Under the pieces are notes generated by a model. That model saw nothing but the letters and a program-made list of their open reading frames with translations, made no database searches and was not told the DNA's origin. Made by a program: the position numbers and the translations under genes. Positions 12,344 through 55,141 of a stretch of 64,000 nt of DNA are shown piece after piece. Source of the DNA: Acidimicrobiales bacterium (GTDB taxonomy: Bacteria; Actinomycetota; Acidimicrobiia; Acidimicrobiales; Aldehydirespiratoraceae); the NCBI GenBank assembly GCA_029263175.1, contig JAJCXZ010000049.1:1-64000 (forward strand), in the 5' to 3' direction. Each line of letters opens with the position of its first letter. The stretch's first letter is position 1.

Positions 12344-13354
12344 CTAGTGCGGCGAGTACGAGGCCAGATTCGCCATGTAGTTGGTGCGCTCGAACGAGGA
12401 TGGATCGGGTGACGATTTCTGGCTGAGGCTGCCTCGGGCCTGGGTCAACGAGCGGTATTCCCGCTCCGTAAACCAGTGGGAGAGTCCGTCCAGCACCGTC
12501 GTCACATGCTCGGGACCGTGCATCAGCAGGGCGGAGGTCATCATTGTCACGTCCGCGCCGGCCAGGATGAGTTTGATGGCAGCCTCAGCATCGTGGATGC
12601 CGGTGGTGGCGGCGAGCGATGCTTCCAGCTGGCCGTGCAGGATGGCGACCCATCGAAGAACCAAGCGCATCTCGTTCGGTGAGCTCAAGACGAGATTGGG
12701 CGTGGTCGACAGCTGGTCGAGGTCGATATCTGGTTGGTAGAAGCGATTGAACAGCACGAGCCCGTCGGCCCCGGCGTCGACCAACCGTCGCGCCATGTTG
12801 GCGGGCGAGCTGAAGAAGGGGCCGATCTTCACCGCGAGAGGGATCTCGACCGTGCTTCTCACGGCCGCGACAAGCTGGAGATATTGGTCTTCGACGTCGG
12901 CGGCCGACGCGTTCGCATCGGCCGCGATGAGGTAGATGTTCAACTCCAGCGCGTCGGCACCTTCATCTTCGAGAAGCTTGGCGTAGTGGGTCCACCCTCC
13001 GGTCGATGTGCCGTTGAGGCTGGCGATCACCGGGATCGTCAGCTCGTTCTTGGCCGCGATCAGGGTGCGGAGGTAGCGATCGGGCCCGGTGTTGTAGGAG
13101 TCGAGCTCCGGAAAATAGCCGCCGAACACCTCCCCGTGCTGATCGGCGCCGGTATCGAGTCCGCGATGGAGTCCCATCGCGTCGTGCTCGATCTGCTCCT
13201 CGAACAACGAAGGCAACACGATGGCCGCGGCTCCGGCCTCCTGCAGCGCGACGAGCGTGTCGATCTGACCCGTGAGTGGTGAGGACGACGCCACGATGGG
13301 ATTGGCGAGATCGAGGCCCATGTAGTGAGTACGGAGGTCGGTGGTTGGGGTCAT
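12344..13354 (-). CDS. Dihydroorotate dehydrogenase-like protein (PFOR-associated)
   Basis: FMN-binding TIM-barrel protein of 336 aa of the dihydroorotate-dehydrogenase-like family. Typical segments: MGLDLANPIVASSSPLTG, IPVIASLNGTSTGGW, GADALELNIYLIAAD, LAVKIGPFFSSPANMARRL and ATTGIHDAEAAIKLILAGAD (phosphate-binding end). These proteins are commonly encoded beside pyruvate:ferredoxin oxidoreductase, and their substrate is not settled; de novo pyrimidine synthesis is not the likely role. ATG 13354 overlaps the PFOR stop by 4 nt, so translation is coupled and a shared function (flavin/ferredoxin redox) is likely. The 3' end has an unusual polar tail (SLSQKSSPDPSSFERTNY). Confidence 0.88.
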   Translation of the reverse strand: MTPTTDLRTHYMGLDLANPIVASSSPLTGQIDTLVALQEAGAAAIVLPSLFEEQIEHDAMGLHRGLDTGADQHGEVFGGYFPELDSYNTGPDRYLRTLIAAKNELTIPVIASLNGTSTGGWTHYAKLLEDEGADALELNIYLIAADANASAADVEDQYLQLVAAVRSTVEIPLAVKIGPFFSSPANMARRLVDAGADGLVLFNRFYQPDIDLDQLSTTPNLVLSSPNEMRLVLRWVAILHGQLEASLAATTGIHDAEAAIKLILAGADVTMMTSALLMHGPEHVTTVLDGLSHWFTEREYRSLTQARGSLSQKSSPDPSSFERTNYMANLASYSPH

Positions 13355-16300
13355 TCTTCTACCTGTCCGAACGTTGCGGTGTGCTCGACATCGACCATCT
13401 GTTGGTAGAGATGCCAACGGTCGTCGATGTCTTGCTGGGCCTCGGTGAAGAGCCGCTCGGCGACCTGGGGGTTGGACCGGGCGAGCATGGCGAAACGGCC
13501 TTCGGTCATGGCGAAGTCGCGGAACGCGACCTTGGGCGGGCGGCTGTCGAGGTGCAGGGCGTGTTCGCCGGCAGCCTCGCGTCCCGGGTCGTAGCGGTAC
13601 ATCGGCCAATAGCCGCTTTCCACCGCCATCTTCTGGTGTTCCATCATGTGGGTCAGGTCGAAACCGTGGGCGATGCAGGGGCTGTAGGCGATTATCAGCG
13701 ACGGCCCCGGATGGGCCTCGGCTTCGGCGAACGCCTTGATGACCTGGGTCATGTTCGCGCCCATCGCCACCTGAGCCACATACACGCCGCCGTAGGCCAT
13801 GGCGATCATGCCGAGGTCCTTCTTGGCGGTGGTCTTGCCCCCGGCGGAGAACTTGGCGATCGCGGCGCGTGGCGTGGCTTTGGACGTCTGGCCGCCTGTG
13901 TTGGAGTAGACCTCGGTGTCGAGCACCAGGATGTTCACATTGCGCCCCGATGCGAGCACGTGATCGAGGCCGCCGAAGCCGATGTCGTACGCCCAGCCGT
14001 CACCGCCCACGATCCATACGCCGGTGTCGACGAGATAGTCGCTGAGTGAGCGAAGGCGCGACGCCAGCGGTGTCGTCTCGGGATCGGCCAGCTGATCGAG
14101 ACGAGCCCGCAGAGCCGCGACCCGTTCGCGTTGGTCGGCGATGCCGCGCTCGTGGCTCTGGTCGGCTTCGAGGATGTCGGCCGCCACCGGTCCCACCTCG
14201 GAGGCCAGCGAGGCGAGTAGCCGGCGAGCTTCGGCCTCGTGATGGTCGAGCGCGAGCCGCATCCCGAGCCCGAACTCGGCATTGTCCTCGAACAGCGAGT
14301 TGGCCCATGCGGGACCGCGGCCGTCGGCGTTCGTGGCCCACGGAGTGGTGGGTAGATTGGCGCCATAGATCGACGAACAGCCGGTGGCATTGGCCACGGT
14401 GATCCGATCACCGAATTGTTGGGTGAGCAGCTTCAGGTAGGGGGTCTCGCCGCAGCCGAGGCACGCGCCGGAGAACTCGAAGAGAGGTTGGGCCTGCTGA
14501 GTCCCCTTGATCGTGAGGAGGTCGAGAGAACTCCGATCGGCTTCGGGGAGGTCGAGGAAATGGGCGAAGTTGATGCGCTCCGCGTCCAAGTGATCGGCCT
14601 TGGCCTCCATGTTGATCGCCCGATGCTTGACGACCTCTTTGCTCTTTGCCGGGCAGATGCTGACGCAGACCCCGCAGCCGGTGCAGTCATCGGGGGCAAC
14701 CTGGATGACGAGGCGTTGATCGGGCGTGCTGTGCCGGTCGCCGGTCCAGTCCTTGTCGCGGAATCCTTCGGGCGCGTCGGTGAGGGTCTCCGCCGGCAAC
14801 ACCTTCATGCGGATGGCGGCGTGGGGGCACACCAGGGTGCAACGGCCGCAGTCGATGCAGATGTCGGGATCCCAGATCGGGATGTCGATGGCGAGGCTTC
14901 GTTTCTCCCACTGTGCGGTTCCCATCGGGAACGAGCCGTCGACGGGCATGGCACTGACGGGGAGAAGATCGCCCTTCCCGTCCATCATCATGGCGGTGAC
15001 CCGTTGCACGAAATCGGGAGCCTCCTCCGGCACGGGTCGCCGAAGGCGTCTCGTCCCGACCATCTCGGCAGGAGTTTCGACCCGGACCAGAGCCGCCACG
15101 GCCTGGTCGACCGCCGCGAAGTTGCGGTCGAGCACGAGTTGGCCTCGCTTCTGGTAGCTCCTGGAGATGGCGTCCTTGACAGCAGCCACGGCTTCATCGG
15201 GGGGCAGGACTCCTGCCAGGAAAAAGAAGCAGGTCTGCAGCACGGTGTTGACGTGGCCGCCCAACCCCGCCTCCGTGGCGACGCGCCCGCCGTCCACGAT
15301 CCAGAGGGCCAGGTCCTTGTCGATGATCTGGCGTTGGGTTTCGATGGGCAGGCTGCGCCACACCGTTTCGGGACCGTGGTGGGTGTTGAGCAGGAAGGTC
15401 GCCCCTCGGCGGGCGATCCTCAGAACATCGACCTGGTCAAGGAGACTCGTGTGATGACAGGCGACGAAGTCGGCCTCACCGATCAGATAGGTGGAGCGGA
15501 TCGGCTCCGGCCCGAACCGAAGGTGTGACACGGTCATCGACCCGGACTTCTTGGAGTCGTAGACGAAGTAGCCCTGAGCAAACTGCGTTGTGGATTCACC
15601 GATGATCTTCACCGAGTTCTTGTTCGCCCCCACGGTGCCGTCGCTGCCGAGGCCGTAGAAGACCGCTCGGTTGACGTTGTCGGGTTCGCTCCAACGAGAC
15701 TCATCGACGTCGAGGCTGAGGTGGGTGACGTCGTCGATGATGCCGACGGTGAAATGGGGCCGCGGAGTCGCCCCGTCGAGTTCGTCGAGGATCGACAGCG
15801 CCATCGCCGGCGTGAACTCCTTCGATGAGAGGCCGTAGCGACCACCGATCACACTGGGCATCGACTTCTGGTGCCGCTCGAACAACGCGGTCACGACGTC
15901 GCTGTAGAGGGGTTCACCGACCGAACCGGGCTCCTTGGTGCGATCCAACACCGCGATCGAACGGACGGACGCGGGAAGCGCGGCGACGAATGCCTCGGAA
16001 TCGAATGGCCGGTAGAGCCGTACGGCCACAACCCCGACCTTGGCCCCTGCCGCGGCCTCGCGCTCGACGGCTTCGATGGCCGCGCCGACCCCGGAGCCCA
16101 TCATGACGATGACCCGTTCAGCGTCAGGTGCCCCCCAGTAGTCGAACAGGTGATACGCCCGGCCCGTCAGGTCAGCGAGGCGATCCATTTCCGTCTGCAC
16201 CGCGTTCGGCGTGGCCAGGTGAAATGGGTTGGCGGCCTCGCGGGCCTGGAAGAAGACATCCGGGTTCTGGGCGGTGCGTCGAAGCACCGGATGATTCGGG

Positions 16301-16938
16301 TTCAAGCCGCGGGTCCGGTGTTGCTCGACCAGGCTGTCGTCGATCATCTCGCGAATCGTGTCGTCAGAGACGCTCTCGATCTTCGACACCTCGTGGGAGG
16401 TGCGGAATCCGTCGAAGAAGTGCAGGAATGGGACCCTGGTCCGCAGCGTCGACGCGTGGGCGACCAGCGCCAGGTCCTGGGCCTCCTGCACCGACGACGA
16501 TGCCAACATGGCCATCCCGGTCTGGCGGACAGCCATCACATCGCTGTGGTCGCCGAAGATGCTCAGAGCGTGCGTGGCGAGCGAACGCGCCGCCACATGG
16601 ACAACCGCTGGCGTGAGCTCGCCCGCGATCTTGTACAGGTTCGGGATCATCAACAACAGGCCCTGCGAGGCCGTGAACGTTGTCGTCAGTGCTCCGGCCT
16701 GCAACGCACCGTGAACGGCGCCTGCGGCTCCGCCCTCGCTCTGCATCTCGATCACGTCGGGCACCGCGCCCCACGCGTTCGTCCTTCCCTGCTGAGACCA
16801 GGCGTCCGCCAGCTCGCCCATTGCCGACGCCGGCGTGATCGGGTAGATCGCGATCACCTCGCTCGCCTGATGGGCGACGCGGGCAGCCGCCTCGTTCCCA
16901 TCAACAGTGACCCACGACGTCGTGTCAGCGCCTCGCAT
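13351..16938 (-). CDS. nifJ: Pyruvate:ferredoxin (flavodoxin) oxidoreductase
   Basis: Single-chain PFOR of 1195 aa, the normal length for homodimeric enzymes. It converts pyruvate and CoA to acetyl-CoA and CO2 and reduces ferredoxin. Domains in order: N-terminal TPP/substrate domain (YPITPASAMGELAD at about 32, EMQSEGGAAGAVHGAL at about 64), domain II, gamma domain (YGLGSDGTVGANKNSVKIIG at about 430), a ferredoxin domain with two 4Fe-4S motifs (CIDCGRCTLVCP at about 694 and CTGCGVCVSICP at about 754), and the C-terminal TPP domain (CLGCGETPYLK, GDGWAYDIGFGGLDH, NTGGQ). ATG 16938 follows GGGAGGA. It heads an operon with the DHOD-like gene. Oxygen sensitivity is usual, so microaerobic metabolism or a protected form is implied. 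Confidence 0.97.
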   Translation of the reverse strand: MRGADTTSWVTVDGNEAAARVAHQASEVIAIYPITPASAMGELADAWSQQGRTNAWGAVPDVIEMQSEGGAAGAVHGALQAGALTTTFTASQGLLLMIPNLYKIAGELTPAVVHVAARSLATHALSIFGDHSDVMAVRQTGMAMLASSSVQEAQDLALVAHASTLRTRVPFLHFFDGFRTSHEVSKIESVSDDTIREMIDDSLVEQHRTRGLNPNHPVLRRTAQNPDVFFQAREAANPFHLATPNAVQTEMDRLADLTGRAYHLFDYWGAPDAERVIVMMGSGVGAAIEAVEREAAAGAKVGVVAVRLYRPFDSEAFVAALPASVRSIAVLDRTKEPGSVGEPLYSDVVTALFERHQKSMPSVIGGRYGLSSKEFTPAMALSILDELDGATPRPHFTVGIIDDVTHLSLDVDESRWSEPDNVNRAVFYGLGSDGTVGANKNSVKIIGESTTQFAQGYFVYDSKKSGSMTVSHLRFGPEPIRSTYLIGEADFVACHHTSLLDQVDVLRIARRGATFLLNTHHGPETVWRSLPIETQRQIIDKDLALWIVDGGRVATEAGLGGHVNTVLQTCFFFLAGVLPPDEAVAAVKDAISRSYQKRGQLVLDRNFAAVDQAVAALVRVETPAEMVGTRRLRRPVPEEAPDFVQRVTAMMMDGKGDLLPVSAMPVDGSFPMGTAQWEKRSLAIDIPIWDPDICIDCGRCTLVCPHAAIRMKVLPAETLTDAPEGFRDKDWTGDRHSTPDQRLVIQVAPDDCTGCGVCVSICPAKSKEVVKHRAINMEAKADHLDAERINFAHFLDLPEADRSSLDLLTIKGTQQAQPLFEFSGACLGCGETPYLKLLTQQFGDRITVANATGCSSIYGANLPTTPWATNADGRGPAWANSLFEDNAEFGLGMRLALDHHEAEARRLLASLASEVGPVAADILEADQSHERGIADQRERVAALRARLDQLADPETTPLASRLRSLSDYLVDTGVWIVGGDGWAYDIGFGGLDHVLASGRNVNILVLDTEVYSNTGGQTSKATPRAAIAKFSAGGKTTAKKDLGMIAMAYGGVYVAQVAMGANMTQVIKAFAEAEAHPGPSLIIAYSPCIAHGFDLTHMMEHQKMAVESGYWPMYRYDPGREAAGEHALHLDSRPPKVAFRDFAMTEGRFAMLARSNPQVAERLFTEAQQDIDDRWHLYQQMVDVEHTATFGQVEE

Positions 16939-17010: not shown

Positions 17011-17637
17011 CTAGGTCCCGACCACCATCCTTCTCCGGTGGGTGGCGTGTCGTTCCCGGCCGCAGCGCTCACGATGGACGAGGCGTCGTCTTCGCCCTCG
17101 AGATACTCGAGAAGCCGCCACCACGGCGATCGCCCAGCCGCCGGCAATGTCGGCGGGCAGGTGTGCGCCGACATACATCCTCGAAGCGCCGGTGACGGCC
17201 GCACCCGCGACCAGCACCCGCCGCAGAGGTGGAGGCACGTCGGCAACGAGGGCAACGCCGAGGGAGACAGCCGAGTGACCCGAGGGCCAGCCCCGTCCTT
17301 GCTGTGGTTGTCCTCGGACGGTCACATCGTCGAGCAGGTCTGGCGGTCGACCTCGACCTCCGACCAGCCGCTTTACTCCCTTTACACCAGCCCAGAGGGC
17401 GACTCCGGTGCCGAGAGTTGTCGTTCGCCCGGTCTGACGCCGATCGATCACTCCGACAGCAACTGCGCCGGCAAGCGATCCGAGCTGCATCACCGGCCAG
17501 GCAACGGGGTGCAGTTGATCCGGGAGTTGATTCCATGACCGAAACAGCTGCTCCTCCCACGGTCCGACCTTCCGGGAACGGCCCGGACGAGCGGACGCGA
17601 CGGCGACAACGGTGGCTACGGCGACAGTGGGGGTCAT
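17011..17637 (-). CDS. PAP2 family phosphatase
   Basis: Membrane phosphatase of 208 aa, PAP2/acid-phosphatase superfamily, likely acting on a lipid phosphate or polyprenyl pyrophosphate at the membrane. All three catalytic motifs are intact: K89xxxxxxxRP98 (KRLVGGRGRP), PSGH at 118-121, and SRMYVGAHLPAD at 152-163. Helices flank these. ATG 17637 overlaps the stop of the upstream lipoprotein gene by 4 nt, making it the last gene of a five-gene coupled operon that also contains a PAP2-kinase fusion. The C-terminus is very Arg-rich (RVSRGRRRRLVHRERCGRER), suggesting contact with acidic lipid headgroups. Confidence 0.88.
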   Translation of the reverse strand: MTPTVAVATVVAVASARPGRSRKVGPWEEQLFRSWNQLPDQLHPVAWPVMQLGSLAGAVAVGVIDRRQTGRTTTLGTGVALWAGVKGVKRLVGGRGRPPDLLDDVTVRGQPQQGRGWPSGHSAVSLGVALVADVPPPLRRVLVAGAAVTGASRMYVGAHLPADIAGGWAIAVVAASRVSRGRRRRLVHRERCGRERHATHRRRMVVGT

Positions 17638-18089
17638 AGCTCGGCGTCCTCGATGAAACCCGCACGTACGTCAGCCTGGATCTCGGCGCGTGTGGTCCAC
17701 AACACGAGTGCCTCGAGTTCTTGGCGAACCTGGTCGTCGATATCGGCGGCGAAGTCCCACGAAACGCATCCGCCTTCCCTCAAAGTGACTGCGTCGGCGC
17801 CGGACCTGCACGCATCCTCGAATATGAGGGTGGCGGCCGTGCCATGCCGGTCCGAGAGCAGGGTGACGCTGACGTGACCGGCTCGGATCGTCGCGTCGCT
17901 CTGGGTGAAGCCGTCTGGGAGGTCGTCGAGGCAGGGCACCGCGTCGGAGGTGGGTATGGCTTGGGTCATCAAGAGCGCCGGTGAGCGACGTCCGCAGGAG
18001 AGGCCATCCGGGTATGCATCGCCCGTGGCGCAGGCCGTGGTGATGAGCGCCGCCAGGATGGCGGCGAGGATGGCCCGTCGGGCGCTCAT
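17634..18089 (-). CDS. Small lipoprotein in lipid-kinase operon
   Basis: Exported lipoprotein of 151 aa: signal peptide with lipobox (AILAALITTAC, Cys about 20). The mature part has four further Cys (GLSCGR, VPCLDD, EDACRSG, GGCVSWDF), enough for two disulfides. No domain recognised. ATG 18089 overlaps the PAP2-kinase stop, and its own stop overlaps the PAP2 start, both as 4-nt ATGA, so it is clearly part of the same unit. The position suggests an extracytoplasmic accessory factor for the RND/PAP2 machinery. Confidence 0.8.
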   Translation of the reverse strand: MSARRAILAAILAALITTACATGDAYPDGLSCGRRSPALLMTQAIPTSDAVPCLDDLPDGFTQSDATIRAGHVSVTLLSDRHGTAATLIFEDACRSGADAVTLREGGCVSWDFAADIDDQVRQELEALVLWTTRAEIQADVRAGFIEDAEL

Positions 18090-19717
18090 CCGAAGTACCC
18101 GAGCTCTTGGAACCCGTCGACGGTTGCGAGCGTGGCAGCGATCCCACCGGCAATCATCGCCAGGGTGAGCCCGATCCGTCGCCAGGACCACCGCTGGATA
18201 CTCACGGAGTCTCGAGCAGGAACGAGGGCGCGGAAGTCGGCGACGAGTTCGTCGCCGCGGGTCTTGAGCTCTCGTCGCAATCCGGAGGGCAGAGTCACGC
18301 CGGTCGATGCGGCGAACGCCTCGGCCAGCTCGTCGTCGGTGAAGACGAGACGTGCCCGCTGATGGACGAGCGGCGCGGACGATTGGAGAGCCAAGACAAG
18401 CATCATGTTGGCGAGATCGACGGCTTGGCGCCACGGGGTTGGGCGGATGGCCGCGAAGGCGACGTCGATGAGCCACAGCTGGTCTCTGGAATTGAGCATG
18501 ACGTTTGCGGGCTTGATGTCGCGGTGCGCCAATCCGTTGTCCCACATGCGCCTGATCATCAGCAGAGCGCTGTCGATCGTCTCGGCGGTCACCGCGACCT
18601 CGCCGAGTTCGGTCGCGTCGTCCAGCAGTGCCATGACCACCAGATACTCACGATCCGGCGTGATCTCGACGATGCCCTTCGGTTCGGGCACGGCCAGGCC
18701 AACGTCGCGAAATGTCCGCAGCATGTGATCTTCATGGCCGACGAGCCGCCGGACCGATGTGAACCGGTGCTCGTCCTCCAGACGTCCGTACATCAAGGTG
18801 CGGCCGAGCTTGTACCACCGATCGGACCGGAGATGGCTGGTGGCGTAGAGCTTTGCGAAGACGTGGTTCCCATTTCGAAGCGTGATCTTCAGTGGGGTGG
18901 ATCCGGACGACCCGTCGAGCCCGACATAGGTGATGGTCGCGGCCTCGAGCCCCAGCTGGCGGTCCAAGGCGGCGCTGATGGCGGTGCCGCGGGCACCGGT
19001 GATGTCGAGGTGGGCATGGCGGGCGCCGGTGTAGGCGATGGGGAAGACCCGTTCGGGAGCAAAGACCCGAAACGCGAGCAGCGTGACCGCCACGCCCATG
19101 GCGACGCTGACTGCGACGTCGGTGGGGTGTTCGACACCGACATAGATCTGCGCGAATCCGACGAGGGCGAGTAGCGCGCCCGTTGCCGCGTAGGCGCGGT
19201 GTCGGAGTGGTCCGGCCGGAGCCACCATGAGGGCGAGGGCGATCAGCATCGGCGTGATCAGCGCGATCGGCCGTGACGGATGGGCGTAGCTCTCCCACGC
19301 ACCGATGATTTCGACGTTGATCGGTCGGGGCCGTTGGATCTCGGCGGCCACGATCGCCCACAGCGTGGCGATCACGCACAGCACCGCCAGGTGGATGACC
19401 AGATGCCGGAATCTACGGGTGACGACACCGGCGACGATCGTTGTCCAGCCGAAGAGCGGGACGGCCCAGTCGAGCGTGAACAGGTTGAGTGCTCGCATGG
19501 CCGGATCGAGCCAGCCGGCCCGATGTCCCACGATCGGACCCATGGCCTCCAGGTCTCGCTTGGTGATCCAGACGCCCAGTTCATCGCCGCCGAAGACGAA
19601 GAACCACGCCCACACAATCACCCAGAAGCCGAACACCGCGGCCCAGAGAAGGGCGGCGGTGTCCAGCTCCCGGGGGAGGGGGGGCGGTTCTCCCGAGGGG
19701 CGGCGACGCTGATTCAC
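18086..19717 (-). CDS. PAP2-like membrane domain fused to protein-kinase-fold domain
   Basis: A 543-aa fusion. Residues about 20-225 are a membrane domain of PAP2 type: QRPRP at 128-132, and YVGVEHPTD at 192-200 corresponds to motif 3. The PSGH motif is replaced by HPSRP (146-150), so the phosphatase half may be inactive. Residues about 255-510 have the kinase fold: K289 (VFAKL), HRDIKPANVML at 398-408 with catalytic D400 and N405, and DVA at 418-420 in place of DFG. A final TM is at about 520-536. GTG 19717 overlaps the RND transporter stop (GTGA). A lipid kinase or regulatory kinase is possible. A related kinase is fused to a different membrane domain at 52784-55141. Confidence 0.85.
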   Translation of the reverse strand: MNQRRRPSGEPPPLPRELDTAALLWAAVFGFWVIVWAWFFVFGGDELGVWITKRDLEAMGPIVGHRAGWLDPAMRALNLFTLDWAVPLFGWTTIVAGVVTRRFRHLVIHLAVLCVIATLWAIVAAEIQRPRPINVEIIGAWESYAHPSRPIALITPMLIALALMVAPAGPLRHRAYAATGALLALVGFAQIYVGVEHPTDVAVSVAMGVAVTLLAFRVFAPERVFPIAYTGARHAHLDITGARGTAISAALDRQLGLEAATITYVGLDGSSGSTPLKITLRNGNHVFAKLYATSHLRSDRWYKLGRTLMYGRLEDEHRFTSVRRLVGHEDHMLRTFRDVGLAVPEPKGIVEITPDREYLVVMALLDDATELGEVAVTAETIDSALLMIRRMWDNGLAHRDIKPANVMLNSRDQLWLIDVAFAAIRPTPWRQAVDLANMMLVLALQSSAPLVHQRARLVFTDDELAEAFAASTGVTLPSGLRRELKTRGDELVADFRALVPARDSVSIQRWSWRRIGLTLAMIAGGIAATLATVDGFQELGYFG

Positions 19718-22551
19718 ACGTGCGCCTCAGCGGCGGAACGTGTCGCCGTGCTCCGGCTGTGAGGGTCGTACTCGCTACCCAACCCGACGAGGTCGAGCAG
19801 CGACTCGCGTTCGTCTCCGGTCCGGGACCGGGTGACGACGAGCAAGAGGCTCGGCAGGACCATGAGCGACACGAGAAGGGAGAACACGATCATCACGGCG
19901 GTGAGGGTTCCGAAGACCGCGAAGATCGGCATCGGGGCGAGGGCCATGACCGAGAACCCGATGATCGATGACAGCGCCGAGATCGCCAAGGCACCGCCCG
20001 TACCTTCGCCGGCCCGCCGAAGGGCCGGGAACCGACTGGGCTCGTCTTCGAACTCCTCTCGGAACCGCATCGTGAAATGCGTGGAAAAGTCGATACCGAC
20101 GCCGACCGCAATTGCCGCGATGGTGGCGGTGACGACGTTGATCTTGTAGTCGGCGATGTACATGAACCCGTAGACCCAGCCGACCACCAGCAGGATTGGC
20201 ACAACTGACGCCACCCCGTACCTGATCGACCGCATGAACACGGAGGCGATCAGGGCACAGAGCAAAAGCGCGACCGGGAGGGCCACGACCATGGCGCTGG
20301 TAAACGCGTCGAGGCTGTCCTTGCTGGTGATGGTCTCTCCGGACACTGCGATTCGCTCGAGGTCGCTTCCTGCTGGTCCGCTTTCCAGACCGGCGGCAGC
20401 GGCCTCGAGGGCGGACCGTGCATCGGTGATGATCTCGTCGTCGGTGAGACTGGCTATCCCCACCAAGAGCCGAGTTGCGTGGCTCCCGTCGCCTTTGGCC
20501 CGGATGATCTCGGGAATCGCCTCGGCCTGGAACGCGAGATCACCAGAGGCATTGAGAATCCCGTGGGCGAACGCGACGTCGTAGATCGCACGAATCTGCT
20601 GAGGGGTGTCGGCGAGTCCGTCGCCGTCGGTGTCGGTGATCGTCACGCCGGTTACGGAGGCGATTGCGTCGATCGCCGCGGCTGAGCCGGTAGCGGTTCG
20701 CACGATCGTGACTGCGCTGTCACCGGTTTCGAGTGCTCCATCGACGTTTCGGGACAGGAAGCCGCTGTCGTCCGCCGCGTCTGCCGCGGCCACATCGGCT
20801 TCGGCCTGCCCGATAGCGAGCAGTACCGATGGCTGAGTCAGATCACCCTCGATGTAGATGTAGCCGTCCTCGGTACCTCCACCGGCGCCGAAGTTGCGTT
20901 CCTGCGCATCCATGCCCTGGATGAACCCGCTGTCGGAGTTGAAGAAGTCACTGAACGAGAATTCCGACTCCACCTGGGTGAATCCGACCACGCCCAGCAC
21001 GGCGAGAGCAACTGTCACCGGCAGGGTGAAGACCCGCCAGCGGGCCAGGAAGTGGACCACGTCGCCGGCAGCCTTGAATCCATGGCCGGCACCCTTGATC
21101 TCCACCCCGGTGGGGCGCCCGTCCGCGGCAGCCTTTCCATAGCTGCCTTGCGTGACCCGGTAAGGGATCGCGAGGAACAGTCCGAGGAACACGATCAACA
21201 GGACACCGCCTGCGGGCGGCATGACGATGCTCATCGTGACCATGGTCCCGGCGGCGATGGCCATGACGGTGAAGCCCAACTTGTGGAGAATCATCCGTCC
21301 TCTGTCGAGCGGCGGGTCACCGAGTCCGTCCTCCACAGCAAGTAGGGCTTTCGGAGCGACGATGCCCAAGACCGCGAACGCCAGGAACAGGGCGAGGGCC
21401 GACCCGAGGCCGAACTGCACGATGGCCTCGATACCTGCGACGCTGTTGGAGATGAAGGCAGCAATCGATGAGACCACGGCGAGCAGCAGCGCGGGGAATA
21501 CTGCCCCGAGCCCTCGCGTGTATGCCGCTCGACGCGTAGCGCCGGCGAGCTGTTCCTCTCTGGCTCGTCCACTGGCGTGTACAAAGAAGTCGACGCCGAA
21601 GCTGATCGTGGCGATCGGGGCAACGAACCCCAGCAGCATCCCGCCCTTGAACCCGAGCATTTCGAGAAGTGCGCCGTACCAGAGCATTGTCACGCCAAGT
21701 CCGACGGCGACGACCGCAGCCGCCCAGTACGAGCGCAGCAGGGCGCCGACCAGCAACAACACACCGACGATCGCAAACAGAATGAACGGCGATGCGTTGG
21801 TCAGCTGCTCATCGAACGTCAGCGATCCATCGAAGCCGACCCCCCACGCGGTGTAGCTCGCCTCGTCGCCCTTGAGTGCAGACTGAACGTCGCGCATGAA
21901 CTCCTGAGCGTCTTCGTCGAGGTTGCTGAAGTCGTTCACGACACCGTCGAAGCTTGCGTCGTTCACCAGGACCCGAGCCATGAAGGCCGGCGATTCCCAC
22001 ACCGCAAGCGCCTCTCCCGCAACCGGCTGCGTCGTGGCAGCCGCGCCGAGGGCAAGGGTTGTGCGAAGCGGTGGGCCCACCGCACCGTCGCCGAGAACGT
22101 CGAGAAGCGCCTGTTTCACTTCGGCCTCGGTTGCGTTCACGAGTCCGTCCGGCAACTCTGCATCGACCGCGTCGGCGACCGAGTAGATGCCTGACACCTC
22201 GACATCGAGATCGAAAGCGAACTCGGTGGCGAGGTGTTCGGCGAACGCCGGGTCGGACCGGACCTTGTCGCTGTTGGTCTTCCACTCGATGAGGACGTCC
22301 CGCGAGAGAGCGTCGCCGCCGTCTCGGGCCTCGACCACCACGGGAACGGTGACGACAGAGCTGTCGGACACGAAGGTCGCGTCCGAGAGAGCCTGGATGT
22401 CGTAGAGCTCGCCCGTCGGGTCGAAGTTCGGCTCTTCGGCGTCGATTCGCATCGATGCGAATGGCACCGCGGCGACGGTGATGATGGCGACGGTGGCAAG
22501 AACTCGGCCGAGGTGGTCGCCGATCCATCGGAAGGTACTTTGGGTCTTCAT
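19714..22551 (-). CDS. RND/MMPL family transporter
   Basis: Large RND-superfamily transporter of 945 aa with two similar halves: TM1 at about 13-30, a periplasmic-side loop to about 235, a bundle from about 242, TM7 at about 510, a second loop, then a bundle from about 755. Signature segments are ATISFGVDFFVHASGRAREE and GVGIDFSTHFTMRFREEFED, each with an Asp typical of proton coupling. It resembles hydrophobic-molecule exporters of the HpnN/MMPL type; substrate unknown. ATG 22551 overlaps the small upstream gene's stop (ATGA), and its stop overlaps the GTG of the PAP2-kinase fusion. The operon context suggests transport of a lipid or polyprenol. Confidence 0.92.
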   Translation of the reverse strand: MKTQSTFRWIGDHLGRVLATVAIITVAAVPFASMRIDAEEPNFDPTGELYDIQALSDATFVSDSSVVTVPVVVEARDGGDALSRDVLIEWKTNSDKVRSDPAFAEHLATEFAFDLDVEVSGIYSVADAVDAELPDGLVNATEAEVKQALLDVLGDGAVGPPLRTTLALGAAATTQPVAGEALAVWESPAFMARVLVNDASFDGVVNDFSNLDEDAQEFMRDVQSALKGDEASYTAWGVGFDGSLTFDEQLTNASPFILFAIVGVLLLVGALLRSYWAAAVVAVGLGVTMLWYGALLEMLGFKGGMLLGFVAPIATISFGVDFFVHASGRAREEQLAGATRRAAYTRGLGAVFPALLLAVVSSIAAFISNSVAGIEAIVQFGLGSALALFLAFAVLGIVAPKALLAVEDGLGDPPLDRGRMILHKLGFTVMAIAAGTMVTMSIVMPPAGGVLLIVFLGLFLAIPYRVTQGSYGKAAADGRPTGVEIKGAGHGFKAAGDVVHFLARWRVFTLPVTVALAVLGVVGFTQVESEFSFSDFFNSDSGFIQGMDAQERNFGAGGGTEDGYIYIEGDLTQPSVLLAIGQAEADVAAADAADDSGFLSRNVDGALETGDSAVTIVRTATGSAAAIDAIASVTGVTITDTDGDGLADTPQQIRAIYDVAFAHGILNASGDLAFQAEAIPEIIRAKGDGSHATRLLVGIASLTDDEIITDARSALEAAAAGLESGPAGSDLERIAVSGETITSKDSLDAFTSAMVVALPVALLLCALIASVFMRSIRYGVASVVPILLVVGWVYGFMYIADYKINVVTATIAAIAVGVGIDFSTHFTMRFREEFEDEPSRFPALRRAGEGTGGALAISALSSIIGFSVMALAPMPIFAVFGTLTAVMIVFSLLVSLMVLPSLLLVVTRSRTGDERESLLDLVGLGSEYDPHSRSTATRSAAEAHV

Positions 22552-22796
22552 TGCATTTCCCCCTGCGGGTGTTCGGAAAGTTGGATGGCGGCGACGTCGG
22601 GTTCGTCCTCGATGGCGACGGTTTCGAAAGCGATGTGAAGGTCACCGAGGCGCACGAGGAGCCCGGTCAGCTGCGGCTGATCCACGTAGTCAGTGGTCAG
22701 CCACACGCCTTGTTCGCGCACGACCCAGCAGCCGAGCGCTTCTGCGGTCGCATCAGCAAGATCGCCATTGAGTTGAATCGAGAGCCGTCGGGGCAC
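22548..22796 (-). CDS. Small conserved protein, first gene of RND operon
   Basis: 82-aa soluble protein starting at GTG 22796. The segment DQPQLTGLLVRLGDLHI resembles the DQxALxGLLxRLxxLG segment found in many small actinobacterial proteins of unknown function. The preceding VREQGVWLTTDYV supports a small alpha/beta fold. Overlap of the stop with the RND start (ATGA) shows it is a real gene translated with the transporter. It probably heads the five-gene operon, with its promoter in the 160-bp gap to the divergent LuxR gene. A regulatory or assembly role is a guess. Confidence 0.7.
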   Translation of the reverse strand: MPRRLSIQLNGDLADATAEALGCWVVREQGVWLTTDYVDQPQLTGLLVRLGDLHIAFETVAIEDEPDVAAIQLSEHPQGEMQ

Positions 22797-22956
22797 GTGG
22801 GTGGCCTTTCATCGCCGTGTCGCCACGATCGAACATGGGTGGGTGGGGCGGCACCACCCCGCCGGGTTCCTGGGTGGGTGGACTGGCTTCCACGTACGAG
22901 TCAGCACTCGGTTGGCCCTCACTGTCCGACCTAAGGTGGAATCGGATGGAACGGCG
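22797..22956. promoter_or_regulatory. Divergent intergenic region, RND operon / LuxR gene
   Basis: About 160 bp separates the GTG of the small RND-operon gene (minus) from the LuxR start (plus). It must hold promoters for both. It contains repeated GTGGGTGG/GGGTGG blocks at about 22834-22844 and 22870-22880, but no clean palindrome. A reading frame through it joined to LuxR has non-coding character. Confidence 0.4.
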
Positions 22957-25179
22957 ATGACCGGGCCGGTCGTATTGGCCTCGAAGCTTCAGCCCCCGAC
23001 GTCGCGCCCCGACGCAGTTGCGCGACCCCAACTCGTGGCAGCGCTCGATGCCCGGAGGGACGGTGCACTCTCAGTGATCGTTGCGCCGACCGGGTGGGGG
23101 AAGTCCCAGCTCGTGGCCCAGTGGATCGATGGTCAACACTCGCCGGTTGCGTATGTCGGTCTGGACCGCGCCGACAACGATCCGACCCGCTGTTGGGCTC
23201 ACATCTTGGCGGCCGTCGGTCGCGCCGCAGGGCTGGATCCGGCCCCACTGGCCACCGCTCTGAGGGCGCCGGCGCTCCCCGTGCTCTCTGAAATCGTGGA
23301 GCCCCTTGTCGCCCAGCTCGACGGCGTCGAGCTGCGAGTTGTGCTCGAGGACTTTCACCTCATCACCAGCCCGGCCGTCATCGAGTCCGTAGAGGCTCTG
23401 GTCGACCTGGCTCCGCCCAAGGTCTCCGTGCTGATCGTGACACGAACGGAACCGTCGCTGCATCTGCCGCGGCGACGGGTCAGCGGTTCCCTCAACGAGA
23501 TCCGGCTGGACGATCTCAGGATGGATGTGGCCCTGGCGGGCGATGTCATCTCGGATGCGATCGGGTATGCCCTCGACCCAGACCTCGTTCGACAGCTCGT
23601 GAATCTCACCGAGGGCTGGGCAGCGGGGCTGTACCTGGCCGGCCTCTCGCTGCGCGCCGCTGTTGATCCCCGCGCTTTCGTCGAGTCGTTTGCCGGGGAT
23701 GATCACCTCATCAGCGACTACTTGTCCTCCGAGGTGCTTGCTGGGCTCTCTGACGAGGATCGCCGTTTCCTTCTCGGTACTGCGGTGCTTTCCGAGCTCG
23801 AGCCCGGCCTCTGCGACGAGCTTCTCGGCCGGTCGGACTCAGCCGCGGCCCTCGACCGACTGAGTCGCGTCAACCTCTTCCTCATTCCGATCGATCAAGC
23901 GGGCCGGACGTTTCGCTACCATCAGCTCTTCAGCGATTGGCTCCAGCTCGAGGTCGACCGGATCGACCCGACTGCGCTCCGGGTTGCTCACACGAGAGTC
24001 GCCGAGATCCACGCGGCGCGGGGTGAGCATCTTCTCGCCGTCGACCACGCCCTGTCCGCCGGGGCGGCCGATCTGGCCTTCCAGCTCGTCGGCAGCTCGG
24101 GCATCAGCCTGATCGACGCTGGGCATCACAGCACCGTGGCGCGCTGGTGTTCTCAGCTCCCGGCTACCGACGACCCTGACCAGATGGCTGACCTCGCAGG
24201 GATGCGGGCATGGCTTGGAATCATCGACGGCGATGTCGACGAGGTCGAGCGTCAGTGTGGAGCCGCTCAGCGCGTCCTCAACGGCAAGCCGTGGGAGTCG
24301 CGCTTCGGTCTCGGACGGCCGGGGGAGCTCGACGTCCTACGGAGCTACGCCTATCTGCTGGGCGGATCGTTCCACGCGTCGGTCTCCGCTGCGGAACTCG
24401 CTCGGAAAGGCGGGATGTCTCGGCGAACCGAGGTCGCGCTTGGATACGTGGAAGCCGCCGTCGGGTATTGGTTGGGCGAGCCCGATATGGCTGCCTTCGA
24501 GTCGGCACGGTCGCTCTCCCAGGAGATGCACGATCCGTACGCCGTTCTGCTCGCCGACGCATACCTCGCACTGATCGCACTCGACAGCTTCGACACGCAT
24601 ACGGCGGAACCGCTGATCCAGGCTGCGTTCGACACTGCGCGCGAGGCAGGACTCGAGAGTTTCGGATACGCCGCCGTCTGCCATCTCGCTCGGGCCCGAC
24701 TTCGAATCCTGGTCGGTGACGGATCCGGTGCTGTCGAAGACGCACTCCGTGCCACGGACTTGGCACAGCGGCGCAACGATCTCCCGATCGGGTGCCTCGC
24801 GGGCATGGTCGTGGCTGAAGCGCGGCACGGACTGGGAGATCCGGCTGCATCTGAATCGCTGCAACCGGTGACCGCGGACATCGTCACACTCCCGGATCCG
24901 GGGATTCTCGAAGCCCGGCTCGTCGTCACCGAACGACAGCTCCGGCTTCCTGTTCGTGCGCGATCAGCCCGGTTGAGCGCACCGATCGAAGCGTTGACCG
25001 ATCGCGAGATGCGATTGCTTCGCCTCCTCCCGGGAACACTGAGCCAACGTGAGCTCGGTGACGCCCTCTACGTCTCGTTCAATACGGTCAAGACCTACAA
25101 CCGACAGATCTATCGCAAGCTCGGCGTCTCCTCCCGGGACGGAGCGGTCGCCGCGGCCAGAGAATTCGGGCTGCTCTGA
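22957..25179 (+). CDS. MalT-type LuxR family regulator (LAL)
   Basis: Large ATP-binding regulator of 740 aa. The NTPase has Walker A APTGWGKSQ at 43-51. Walker B is RVVLEDFHLI and a sensor region is VTRTEPSLHLPRRR. Middle residues about 350-640 are helical, TPR-like repeats. The C-terminal LuxR HTH is at about 680-735 (LTDREMRLLRLL, then SQRELGDALYVSFNTVKTYN). I chose ATG 22957 since MTGPVVLASKLQPPTSRP is the normal family start; upstream frame to 22801 is intergenic. It is divergent from the RND/PAP2-kinase operon and is a candidate regulator of it. A hairpin follows the gene. Confidence 0.92.
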   Translation: MTGPVVLASKLQPPTSRPDAVARPQLVAALDARRDGALSVIVAPTGWGKSQLVAQWIDGQHSPVAYVGLDRADNDPTRCWAHILAAVGRAAGLDPAPLATALRAPALPVLSEIVEPLVAQLDGVELRVVLEDFHLITSPAVIESVEALVDLAPPKVSVLIVTRTEPSLHLPRRRVSGSLNEIRLDDLRMDVALAGDVISDAIGYALDPDLVRQLVNLTEGWAAGLYLAGLSLRAAVDPRAFVESFAGDDHLISDYLSSEVLAGLSDEDRRFLLGTAVLSELEPGLCDELLGRSDSAAALDRLSRVNLFLIPIDQAGRTFRYHQLFSDWLQLEVDRIDPTALRVAHTRVAEIHAARGEHLLAVDHALSAGAADLAFQLVGSSGISLIDAGHHSTVARWCSQLPATDDPDQMADLAGMRAWLGIIDGDVDEVERQCGAAQRVLNGKPWESRFGLGRPGELDVLRSYAYLLGGSFHASVSAAELARKGGMSRRTEVALGYVEAAVGYWLGEPDMAAFESARSLSQEMHDPYAVLLADAYLALIALDSFDTHTAEPLIQAAFDTAREAGLESFGYAAVCHLARARLRILVGDGSGAVEDALRATDLAQRRNDLPIGCLAGMVVAEARHGLGDPAASESLQPVTADIVTLPDPGILEARLVVTERQLRLPVRARSARLSAPIEALTDREMRLLRLLPGTLSQRELGDALYVSFNTVKTYNRQIYRKLGVSSRDGAVAAAREFGLL

Positions 25180-52118: not shown

Positions 52119-52784
52119 ATGGGACCAGATGATCGCCGACCGTTCGTGCTCTGCCACGCACTCTCACGTCGGGCATCGGCGATTGTCGTCGCTTCTGCGG
52201 TGCTGACTCTGATCGTGACATCGGCCGTGGCCTGGGGTGGGCGCGTACCGGGCTGGGAAGTCGAGATTCTCGAGTTCATCAACGGCTGGCCGGATTGGCT
52301 CGAGCCTCCGATGTGGGCGCTACAGCAGGTCGGTGTACTGGCCTCGCCGGTCATTGCCGGACTGATCATCGTGTGGTTCACGCGGAACTGGCGACACCTG
52401 GTGCCCTTTGTTCTGGTTCTGCCGCTAAAGCTCGGAATCGAGAAGGGTCTGGTCAAACAGTTGGTCGAACGGGAGCGGCCGTTTGTGTCGGTGGGGCCAG
52501 ACGTGAACGTGCGAGGCCCGGCATTCGAAGGCCTGAGCTTTCCATCGGGCCACGCCACCACTGCCTTTGCTGTCGCAATTCTCGTCTCAGCGTTCTTGCC
52601 GCGACGCTGGCGCCCGGTTGCGTTGGCGTGGGCGACCATCGTGGCGATCGCCCGTCTCTACTACGGCGAGCACAATGCCCTCGACGTGGTCGCCGGGGCA
52701 GCGATGGGCACCGCGTTCGCGGTTGTCTTGTGGTTCGCATTCCTGAACCGACACGTCGATCCCGCCTGCGATTGCGAGCGCTGA
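52119..52784 (+). CDS. PAP2 family phosphatase
   Basis: Membrane phosphatase of 221 aa. All motifs intact: K113-QLVERERP-121, FPSGH at 141-145, and ARLYYGEHNALD at 178-189 with H185 and D189. TM helices around them. The stop overlaps the next ATG by 1 nt, so it is coupled to the kinase/LPG-synthase fusion. Compared with 17011-17637 it is the second PAP2 next to a kinase-fold membrane protein. Confidence 0.9.
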   Translation: MGPDDRRPFVLCHALSRRASAIVVASAVLTLIVTSAVAWGGRVPGWEVEILEFINGWPDWLEPPMWALQQVGVLASPVIAGLIIVWFTRNWRHLVPFVLVLPLKLGIEKGLVKQLVERERPFVSVGPDVNVRGPAFEGLSFPSGHATTAFAVAILVSAFLPRRWRPVALAWATIVAIARLYYGEHNALDVVAGAAMGTAFAVVLWFAFLNRHVDPACDCER

Positions 52785-55141
52785 TGCATCGCGCCCACGT
52801 CCGATCCCCTGTCGACGTCCTGCGCCTTGTGGTCGGAGGGATCCTTGTCACGGGTGGCCTCGCCGTTGCGAACATCTTCGACTCGACCCTTCTCGGTCTG
52901 AGTGAGGACGGCGCTTCCGCCATCGAACCACTCCCTGACTGGGCGCATGATTTGCCCGCAGCAATCCTCGCCGTGGGAGTTGCTGTCGCGGTTGGTGGTG
53001 CACTTGCGTGGGCGCTGGCCACGACTCGATTTCGTCGCTTCGGCATGCTCGCCTCGGGATTCGTGGGAGCGTCGCTCCTCAGCCTCGGGGTCGGAGAGCT
53101 GATCTTTGACCTTGTCGACGTGTCAGTTCGCGCAGTGTTCCAAGCCGAGGATGGAGACTTCGCTCTCCCATTCGCCGGTGAAGAACGGCCCGGTGACCCT
53201 CTTCTCGCTGGAGCGGTCGCGATGCTGGTGGTGTCAGGTTCCTTTCTACCGCGTGGGACCACTCGTCGGCTCGGCGGGCTTCTCGCGCTCTACGCGGCGA
53301 TCTCGATCTGGTCATCGGGCTTGCCGGCACTCGGCCTCGTCGCCGATCTCGGAAGCGGGATGCTGGTGGCATCGGTGATGTTGCTCGTATTTGGCCGCCA
53401 CGACCTTGCTCCCGACGAGCAGGAGATAGCAGCGGCACTGCGATCGGTCGGCCTCGACCTACAGCACCTCGGGCGACTCGATGTCGACGCCCGCGCGTCT
53501 GCTCCCTGGGTCGGAACGACAGAGGAGGGCAGTCAGGTCTTTGTCAAAGCGCTTGGGCGCGACGAACGCAGCGCAGACCTTCTCTTCCGCGCGTACCGTT
53601 GGATCCGACTCCGCAAGACCGGAGACCATCGCCCTTTCGTGAGCCTTCAACGGGCCGTTGAGCATGAAGCGCTCGTCTCGCTTCAGGCCGCGGCCCTCGG
53701 CATTCGAACCCCGCGGATCGTCGGGGTCGCCGATGCGGGCGTCGACGGAATGGTGCTCGCCTATGAGGCGATTGATGGCGGCTCAGCCGACGGCTTCGAC
53801 GAGCTCGACGATGATGCCCTGGTCGCCATTTGGTCCATGGTGAGCCGGCTGCACAAGAAGCGAATCGCACACCGAGATCTGCGTCTGGCCAACATCTTCA
53901 TCGACGATTCTGGGATCCCATGGCTGATCGACTTCGGCTTCTCGGAGCTGGCTGCATCCGATCAACTACTCGGCACGGATGTCGCCGAGCTACTGGCCTC
54001 CACGGCCGCAGTCGTGGGCCCTGAGCGCGCCGTTGGTGCCGCCCACGTTGCCACCGGTCTCGCCGAACTCACCCGGGCGATGCCCTGGCTTCAGCCGAAT
54101 GCGCTGAGCTCCGCGACACGGCAGGCAGTCGGCGGCGAGAAAGGACTTGCTCCGATCCGTTCCCTGCTGATCCACGGCTGCGGTGTGCCGGAGGAAGACC
54201 CGGTCAAGCTCGAACGAGTCGATGGCAAGACCCTGTTCCTGCTGGCCACCATCGGGCTGAGCGCCTGGTTCCTCATCCCCCAACTTGCCGACATCGACAG
54301 TCTCTGGGAGCAAGCGCGCACGGCGTCCGCACCATGGGCGGCCACCGCGGTCGGGTTGTCGTTGCTGACCTATGTCGCCGCAACGGCCGCATTGTTGGGT
54401 GCCATCCCAATCCGCCTTCGGTTCGGCCCTGCGCTCGCAGCTCAGATAGCGTCGTCGTTCGCCAACCGTGTCACACCGGCCAAGATTGGCGGCGTGGCGA
54501 CGAACATTCGCTATTTCCAACGCCAGGGCGTTCCGGTTGCCGTCAGTGTGACAGCGGTCGGCCTGAATGCGATCGCCGGCTTGGTGATGCACGTCTCGCT
54601 GACCCTGGTGTTCTTGCTACTCGCAAGTGGAGACGACGACGCCACGCTGGCCATCGTGTCGCCGGCGACGATTGCGGTGGCAGTGGCAGTTCTGGTTGTC
54701 GTCATCCTCGGGTCGTCAGCTCTCCCGGTCACCCGTCGTTTGCTGACGACACATGTCGTCCCGCAGCTCCAGGCCGGCTGGGTTTCCATCCGGGCGATCG
54801 GGAGGAGTCCCTCCCGGTTGGTGCTGTTGTTGGGCGGATCGGGCGTGATCACCCTGGCCTACCTGGGCGCCATGGTCGCGAGTCTCGAGGCATTCGGATC
54901 GACGGCATCGTTTCCCATCGTGGCGCTGCTCTTTCTCACCGCGAGCGCGGTGGCCAACGCCGCGCCGACCCCCGGTGGTATCGGGGCCGCGGAGGCCGCG
55001 CTCATCGCCGCGTTCAGCACAGTCGAGGAAGCAACGATCGCCATCCCTGCGGTGTTCCTCTACCGGCTGGTGACATTCTGGCTTCCGATCCTGCCCGGCT
55101 GGGCCGCTATGTCGTACCTGCGGCGGACAGAGAGGATCTGA
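52784..55141 (+). CDS. Kinase-fold domain fused to LPG-synthase-type membrane domain
   Basis: 785-aa fusion. Residues about 15-205 are hydrophobic with about six TM helices. About 215-470 is a kinase fold with Lys in VFVKALGRDE (about 254), HRDLRLANIFI near 362-372 (catalytic Asp) and LIDFGFSE near 385 (full DFG). About 485-780 is the flippase-like LPG_synthase_TM (UPF0104) domain with about eight TM helices, including SSFANRVTPAKIGGVATNIR and NAAPTPGGIGAAEAALIAAF. It begins at ATG 52784, 1 nt overlapping the PAP2 stop; a longer frame back to 52295 is antisense-like noise in the PAP2 gene. The C-terminus is convergent with the SRPBCC gene by 35 nt. A lipid phosphorylation and translocation role is an inference. 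Confidence 0.85.
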   Translation: MHRAHVRSPVDVLRLVVGGILVTGGLAVANIFDSTLLGLSEDGASAIEPLPDWAHDLPAAILAVGVAVAVGGALAWALATTRFRRFGMLASGFVGASLLSLGVGELIFDLVDVSVRAVFQAEDGDFALPFAGEERPGDPLLAGAVAMLVVSGSFLPRGTTRRLGGLLALYAAISIWSSGLPALGLVADLGSGMLVASVMLLVFGRHDLAPDEQEIAAALRSVGLDLQHLGRLDVDARASAPWVGTTEEGSQVFVKALGRDERSADLLFRAYRWIRLRKTGDHRPFVSLQRAVEHEALVSLQAAALGIRTPRIVGVADAGVDGMVLAYEAIDGGSADGFDELDDDALVAIWSMVSRLHKKRIAHRDLRLANIFIDDSGIPWLIDFGFSELAASDQLLGTDVAELLASTAAVVGPERAVGAAHVATGLAELTRAMPWLQPNALSSATRQAVGGEKGLAPIRSLLIHGCGVPEEDPVKLERVDGKTLFLLATIGLSAWFLIPQLADIDSLWEQARTASAPWAATAVGLSLLTYVAATAALLGAIPIRLRFGPALAAQIASSFANRVTPAKIGGVATNIRYFQRQGVPVAVSVTAVGLNAIAGLVMHVSLTLVFLLLASGDDDATLAIVSPATIAVAVAVLVVVILGSSALPVTRRLLTTHVVPQLQAGWVSIRAIGRSPSRLVLLLGGSGVITLAYLGAMVASLEAFGSTASFPIVALLFLTASAVANAAPTPGGIGAAEAALIAAFSTVEEATIAIPAVFLYRLVTFWLPILPGWAAMSYLRRTERI

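Follow-up and report, generated by a model that had tools for sequence, protein, structure and literature searches.

The proteins of the locus described here have their closest described relatives in separate families. Members of the PAP2 superfamily (PgpB/YodM, SepP, LpxT-like) resemble the membrane half of a PAP2-kinase and the product of the last gene, which carries all three PAP2 motifs. The fusion differs from them by the family-wide loss of the PSGH His and a partly eroded C3 motif. The RIO/Bud32/Kdo group of eukaryotic-like small-molecule kinases (WaaP, WaaY, KdkA) has catalytic residues, a β3-αC insert, the absence of an activation segment and the fold in common with the kinase domain. 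In contrast to this group, the kinase domain is fused to a PAP2-derived bundle and to a transmembrane (TM) helix with an ectodomain. HAE3/MMPL RND exporters (HpnN, BstA, MmpL) share the MMPL domain and the RND architecture with the transporter of the locus, which scores below the cut-offs of the HAE3, HpnN and BstA models. The known role of the named HAE3/MMPL members is lipid export. MalT/LAL-type LuxR regulators resemble the divergent regulator in the MalT-like ATPase region and the GerE DNA-binding domain, but the regulator described here has an 82-aa protein from an unnamed family as its partner. Actinobacterial PAP2-kinase-LPG_synthase_TM fusions ('flippase-like domain' proteins) hold in one chain the three kinds of domain that occur in the module. 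Their kinases are only 24-33% alike, and their PAP2 domain, where present, scores above the Pfam cut-off, unlike that of the fusion at this locus.

Gene order and overlaps

The window, a stretch of 64,000 nucleotides from an Acidimicrobiales bacterium, contains the following features in and around the operon.

22957..25179, plus strand: divergent MalT/LAL-type LuxR regulator (GerE match, MalT-like; start from coding score)
22797..22956, no strand: divergent intergenic region, likely regulatory (imperfect repeats, candidate sites only)
22548..22796, minus strand: small82, 82 aa, of an unnamed small-protein family
19714..22551, minus strand: RND/MMPL-type transporter, 945 aa, HAE3/HpnN-like (PF03176 match)
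18086..19717, minus strand: PAP2-kinase, 543 aa (domain matches, motif conservation, fold comparison of the kinase part, hydropathy)
17634..18089, minus strand: lipoprotein, 151 aa, Cys-containing predicted extracytoplasmic partner of the kinase
17011..17637, minus strand: PAP2 phosphatase with complete motifs, 208 aa (PF01569 match and sequence)
13351-16938, minus strand: pyruvate:ferredoxin oxidoreductase (PFOR), 72 nt past the operon

The five minus-strand genes and their four 4-nt overlaps agree exactly, in reading frames and positions, with the original prediction. The overlap is ATGA at the small82/RND (22551/22548), PAP2-kinase/lipoprotein (18089/18086) and lipoprotein/PAP2 (17637/17634) junctions and GTGA at the RND/PAP2-kinase junction (19717/19714). 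Among the 664 genes called with a simple in-house scorer, 41% have ends that permit a 4-nt overlap, and about 14% when the right frame is demanded as well. Four consecutive overlaps are therefore far above chance.

The LuxR gene starts more likely at ATG 22957 than at GTG 22801, as judged by the coding score, which leaves a divergent gap of 160 nt. Downstream, 72 nt separate the operon from PFOR on the same strand, and a terminator scan found no terminator-like site in this gap; the transcript may thus extend past 17011. PFOR and a dihydroorotate dehydrogenase-like gene (window 12344-16938, minus strand) are themselves joined by a 4-nt overlap, with possible read-through from the operon. Nothing useful was otherwise obtained from the promoter and terminator scans.

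The PAP2-kinase and its lipoprotein partner

The PAP2-kinase consists of a PAP2-derived membrane half, the kinase domain and a C-terminal TM helix (about 515-533, by hydropathy). The membrane half matches PgpB/YodM (5jki) with an E-value of 1.7e-12. Its C2 motif reads HPSRP, and PF01569 scores 21.4, below the cut-off of 27.2. The loss of the PSGH His, which the original prediction had noted in this protein, is real and family-wide: the residue is lost in 48 of 49 relatives and kept in one, while the C3 His is kept in 34/49. Read from these alignments, the PAP2 half of the kinase has lost the phosphatase acid His family-wide. The last gene (17011-17637) reads WPSGHS and has the RGRP, PSGH and SRMYVGAHLPAD motifs all intact (RP, PSGH and SR..H..D); its PF01569 score of 47.5 bits exceeds the cut-off of 27.2. 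The operon thus supplies an intact PAP2, as had been claimed, and a separate PAP2 gene also occurs in 20 of the 27 well-flanked kinase loci.

Homologues of the kinase that are 41-57% identical over nearly the full length made up the bulk of the matches in genome searches. Matches were obtained in 31/396 Actinomycetota genomes, weaker partial ones included. Within the order the kinase is present in 12/248 genomes, often in several copies per genome. A further scan of genome contigs revealed only two true relatives of the kinase, one of them from a genome already counted. Lys289, Glu329, His398-Arg399-Asp400 (HRDxKPxN), Asn405 and Asp418 are invariant across 47-49 aligned homologues. Since the catalytic residues never vary across the family, the kinase domain looks active by its sequence. 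Lys289 and Glu329 are separated by 40 residues, which implies a long β3-αC insert before the C-helix. Only 16 residues lie between Asp418 and the next invariant Asp, Asp434, and APE is absent, so that no room is left for an activation segment. According to PMC4702295, Kdo, Rio, MTRK and UbiB kinases have inserts before the C-helix, and only protein kinases have the activation loop.

The window kinase passes the Pfam cut-offs for RIO1 (25.3, cut-off 22) and Kdo (24.5, cut-off 21.3); its relatives score just under them. Pkinase reached 23.0 against a cut-off of 31.7, and the domain, without activation segment, falls outside the PknB-type receptor Ser/Thr kinases. It also stayed far below the NCBIfam equivalog model of KdkA (30.8 against 142 bits) and below Bud32 (26.8 against 125). 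In the comparison of a predicted model with known structures, RIO and Bud32 were the best fold matches of the kinase part (Z 11-14), and WaaP/Kdo kinases were not among the fold matches listed. The model is of modest quality, with pLDDT mostly 60-90 in the kinase part and a poor membrane half, which limits the fold comparison to the kinase part. Since RIO and Bud32 kinases have proteins as substrates or work as ATPases, such a fold is no proof of a lipid substrate. As the nearest folds are partly ATPases, the domain might instead serve as a Bud32/RIO-like switch that uses ATP for conformational work on the membrane part, without phosphotransfer. Kdo/WaaY-type sugar kinase profiles match about as well, which argues against a switch, while the complete conservation of the transfer residues suits both views; a pure ATPase function is regarded as improbable.

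The lipoprotein has a signal peptide with a Cys after a small residue, MSARRAILAAILAALITTAC, and a hydrophobic segment at residues 3-21; lipidation is predicted. It has no match in Pfam or NCBIfam, and its predicted model is not usable for a fold search because of a pLDDT of 42. Kinase loci were compared in draft genomes, one per species, many of them with short contigs. Among the 54 loci examined, 27 have at least 3 kb of sequence on both sides, and the lipoprotein adjoins or joins the kinase in all 27. In 17 loci the two are one protein, with the lipoprotein domain at the C-terminus of the kinase. Among the 28 loci with two genes, the kinase stop and a start codon share 4 nt in 25, against about 14% expected from gene ends; this overlap is thus conserved in relatives, as the original prediction requires. 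The lipoprotein-PAP2 junction is likewise tight in most codirectional loci. The invariable presence, the fusions and the overlaps strongly indicate a stoichiometric partnership of kinase and lipoprotein.

The obligate partner outside the cytoplasm, often joined to the kinase by a single TM helix, also matches the layout of receptor kinases. PAP2-kinase and lipoprotein could accordingly form a transmembrane sensor of the lipid or envelope state, with the kinase signalling via protein phosphorylation. The several kinase paralogues per genome and the OpuAC solute-binding lipoprotein that frequently adjoins would fit a sensor. The missing activation segment and the RIO/Kdo-like features are unlike PknB-type receptor kinases, and the neighbouring genes encode phosphatases and transporters, not evident targets of signalling. 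A sensor is considered possible, though less likely than not.

In the 27 well-flanked loci, PAP2 occurs 20 times, LPG_synthase_TM 16 times, OpuAC 15 times and RND twice. By this count the conserved object is PAP2-kinase plus lipoprotein, with an intact PAP2, LPG_synthase_TM and OpuAC as usual neighbours. The flippase-like LPG_synthase_TM protein and the OpuAC binding protein had no place in the original prediction. Two OpuAC genes from other parts of the genome gave very low or no scores against the module's OpuAC model, and two unlinked LPG_synthase_TM genes did not match the module's LPG_TM model. A single lineage (L033, L034, L039 and L052) carries, upstream of an OpuAC-kinase-lipoprotein-PAP2 unit, conserved proteins of about 790, 89 and 313 aa. 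No description of the module came up in a search of open-licence papers.

The RND transporter, small82 and the divergent regulator

The RND gene product has a clear MMPL domain (PF03176, 79.4 bits against a cut-off of 20.5). Its best NCBIfam model is TIGR00921 (HAE3), with 127.8 bits, well below the cut-off of 351.9. Orthologues with 60-64% identity occur in two genomes, G414 and G476, from other families of the same order. An RND gene lies within 5 kb of a kinase in 3 of 54 loci, namely in the window, in G414 (contig C147) and, as a C-terminal remnant, in G414:C94. A further copy stands beside a kinase truncated by the contig end (G476:C288). All of these belong to this order. The RND/kinase overlap is confined to the window. 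In one contig each of G414 and G476, the RND gene is followed by an OpuAC gene on the opposite strand and then by the kinase; owing to the intervening gene, these relatives do not have the RND-kinase operon. On contig G476:C207, another close RND copy stands without any kinase. In a tree, the window kinase groups with full support with kinases from G439, G476 and G414, and no RND was found in the readable surroundings of the G439 locus and two G476 loci. At L152:8163-8445 (G414:C94), fragments of the RND C-terminus, apparently from a decayed gene, stand beside a distant LPG_TM-PAP2-kinase-lipoprotein locus.

These distributions speak against the RND transporter as a core part, which the original prediction had made it. 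That prediction depended on conserved overlaps and on RND staying with the kinase and PAP2 genes; the kinase/lipoprotein overlap is kept, but RND is mostly apart. The RND-kinase link is recent and local. A local assembly is conceivable, in which a LuxR/small-protein cassette and the RND gene joined, on its upstream side, a kinase-lipoprotein-PAP2 module already in place, and RND is functionally unlinked. The rarity of RND near the kinase and its restriction to a single order, the opposite-strand gene between the two in relatives, and LuxR/small-protein pairs elsewhere beside MFS and other genes agree with such an assembly, which would be compatible with either kinase reading. On the other side, several genomes from different families have RND next to the kinase, and a remnant lies beside a more distant kinase locus. 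Close RND orthologues were found in 3/248 genomes of the order, and all three carry the kinase, present in only 12 of the 248; the hypergeometric chance of this co-occurrence is about 1e-4, a value that does not count as independent evidence because the three genomes are related and share an order. A purely local assembly is possible, if somewhat less than probable.

Small82 was detected, with an E-value of 1e-6, by a family profile built without small82 itself. Its domain also forms the N-terminus of the PAP2-kinase in G414:C94 (L152). A search with the single small82 sequence gave only chance matches, antisense to other genes. A profile of small82 and the G414:C94 copy yielded matches in 23/198 genomes. 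The classification of small82 as an orphan was rejected on account of the fused copy and the relatives found with this two-row profile. The family comprises proteins of about 65-111 aa with a typical C-terminal stretch like VDQAALHGLLRKVRDLGLPLISV; neither Pfam nor NCBIfam has a model for it.

The LuxR protein passes the GerE cut-off with 35.1 bits and reaches 242 bits with the MalT model, below its cut-off of 537. Of the 20 small-protein loci (L197-L216), 17 hold a large MalT-type LuxR gene, as against 0/68 controls, which comprised almost four times the amount of sequence. This proximity suggests that the divergent LuxR and small82 are a conserved pair, and it makes a regulatory role of small82 likelier than one as a subunit of the pump. 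The regulatory role that had been assigned to the divergent LuxR becomes plausible in the same way, as the family of small82 sits beside such genes. A description of the pair was not found in open-licence papers. The genes downstream of the small-protein/LuxR loci differ, e.g. MFS in L198. An unnamed small-protein family beside large LuxR regulators would offer a handle on how LuxR proteins sense their signals.

Proposed function and related fusions

The reading tentatively favoured here, at somewhat under an even chance, is a cytoplasmic kinase for a lipid or lipid carrier with an obligate extracytoplasmic subunit, an outer-face PAP2 and a local RND transporter, in which phosphorylation would be coupled to transport. 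Its core would be a two-part membrane kinase, with a PAP2-derived bundle without phosphatase chemistry, a cytoplasmic kinase of the small-molecule type and a last TM helix, together with the extracytoplasmic lipoprotein made in coupling with the kinase or fused to it. The kinase would phosphorylate a membrane lipid or a polyprenyl-type carrier at the inner leaflet, and the outside lipoprotein may act as gate or sensor. The intact PAP2 would strip the phosphate on the outer face. Movement of the lipid may be accomplished by the flippase-like protein at other loci and by the RND exporter here, with export as the presumed direction. In this genome, the divergent LuxR and small82 probably control expression together.

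Lipid phosphorylation and export, as the original prediction had it, may reasonably be supposed. More doubtful is the complete picture of a patchily distributed actinobacterial complex that combines a dead-PAP2-bundle lipid or lipid-carrier kinase, an obligate outside subunit, phosphate addition inside and removal outside and, in this genome, RND transport with a new LuxR/small-protein pair. The phosphorylation and recycling of lipid carriers in actinobacteria is incompletely known, and a conserved membrane kinase whose obligate subunit lies outside, encoded near PAP2 and a flippase-like protein, is a direct candidate for it. The unit worth study would be kinase plus lipoprotein instead of kinase plus RND.

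Other proteins combine PAP2, LPG_synthase_TM and kinase domains differently, e.g. as PAP2-kinase-LPG_TM and LPG_TM-PAP2. No lipoprotein partner was found beside those PAP2-kinase-LPG_synthase_TM fusions whose surroundings were read. Further fusions comprise an intact PAP2 with a kinase (L060:12031-13308), PAP2-kinase-LPG_TM (L068:3272-5746) and LPG_TM-PAP2 (L108:2555-4495). The window itself contains a related unit at 52200-55141 on the plus strand: a PAP2 gene that looks intact and, after it, a gene for a kinase with LPG_synthase_TM in the same chain (52784-55141). This kinase is 24% identical to the PAP2-kinase at 18086-19717 and has relatives in 17/149 Actinomycetota genomes.
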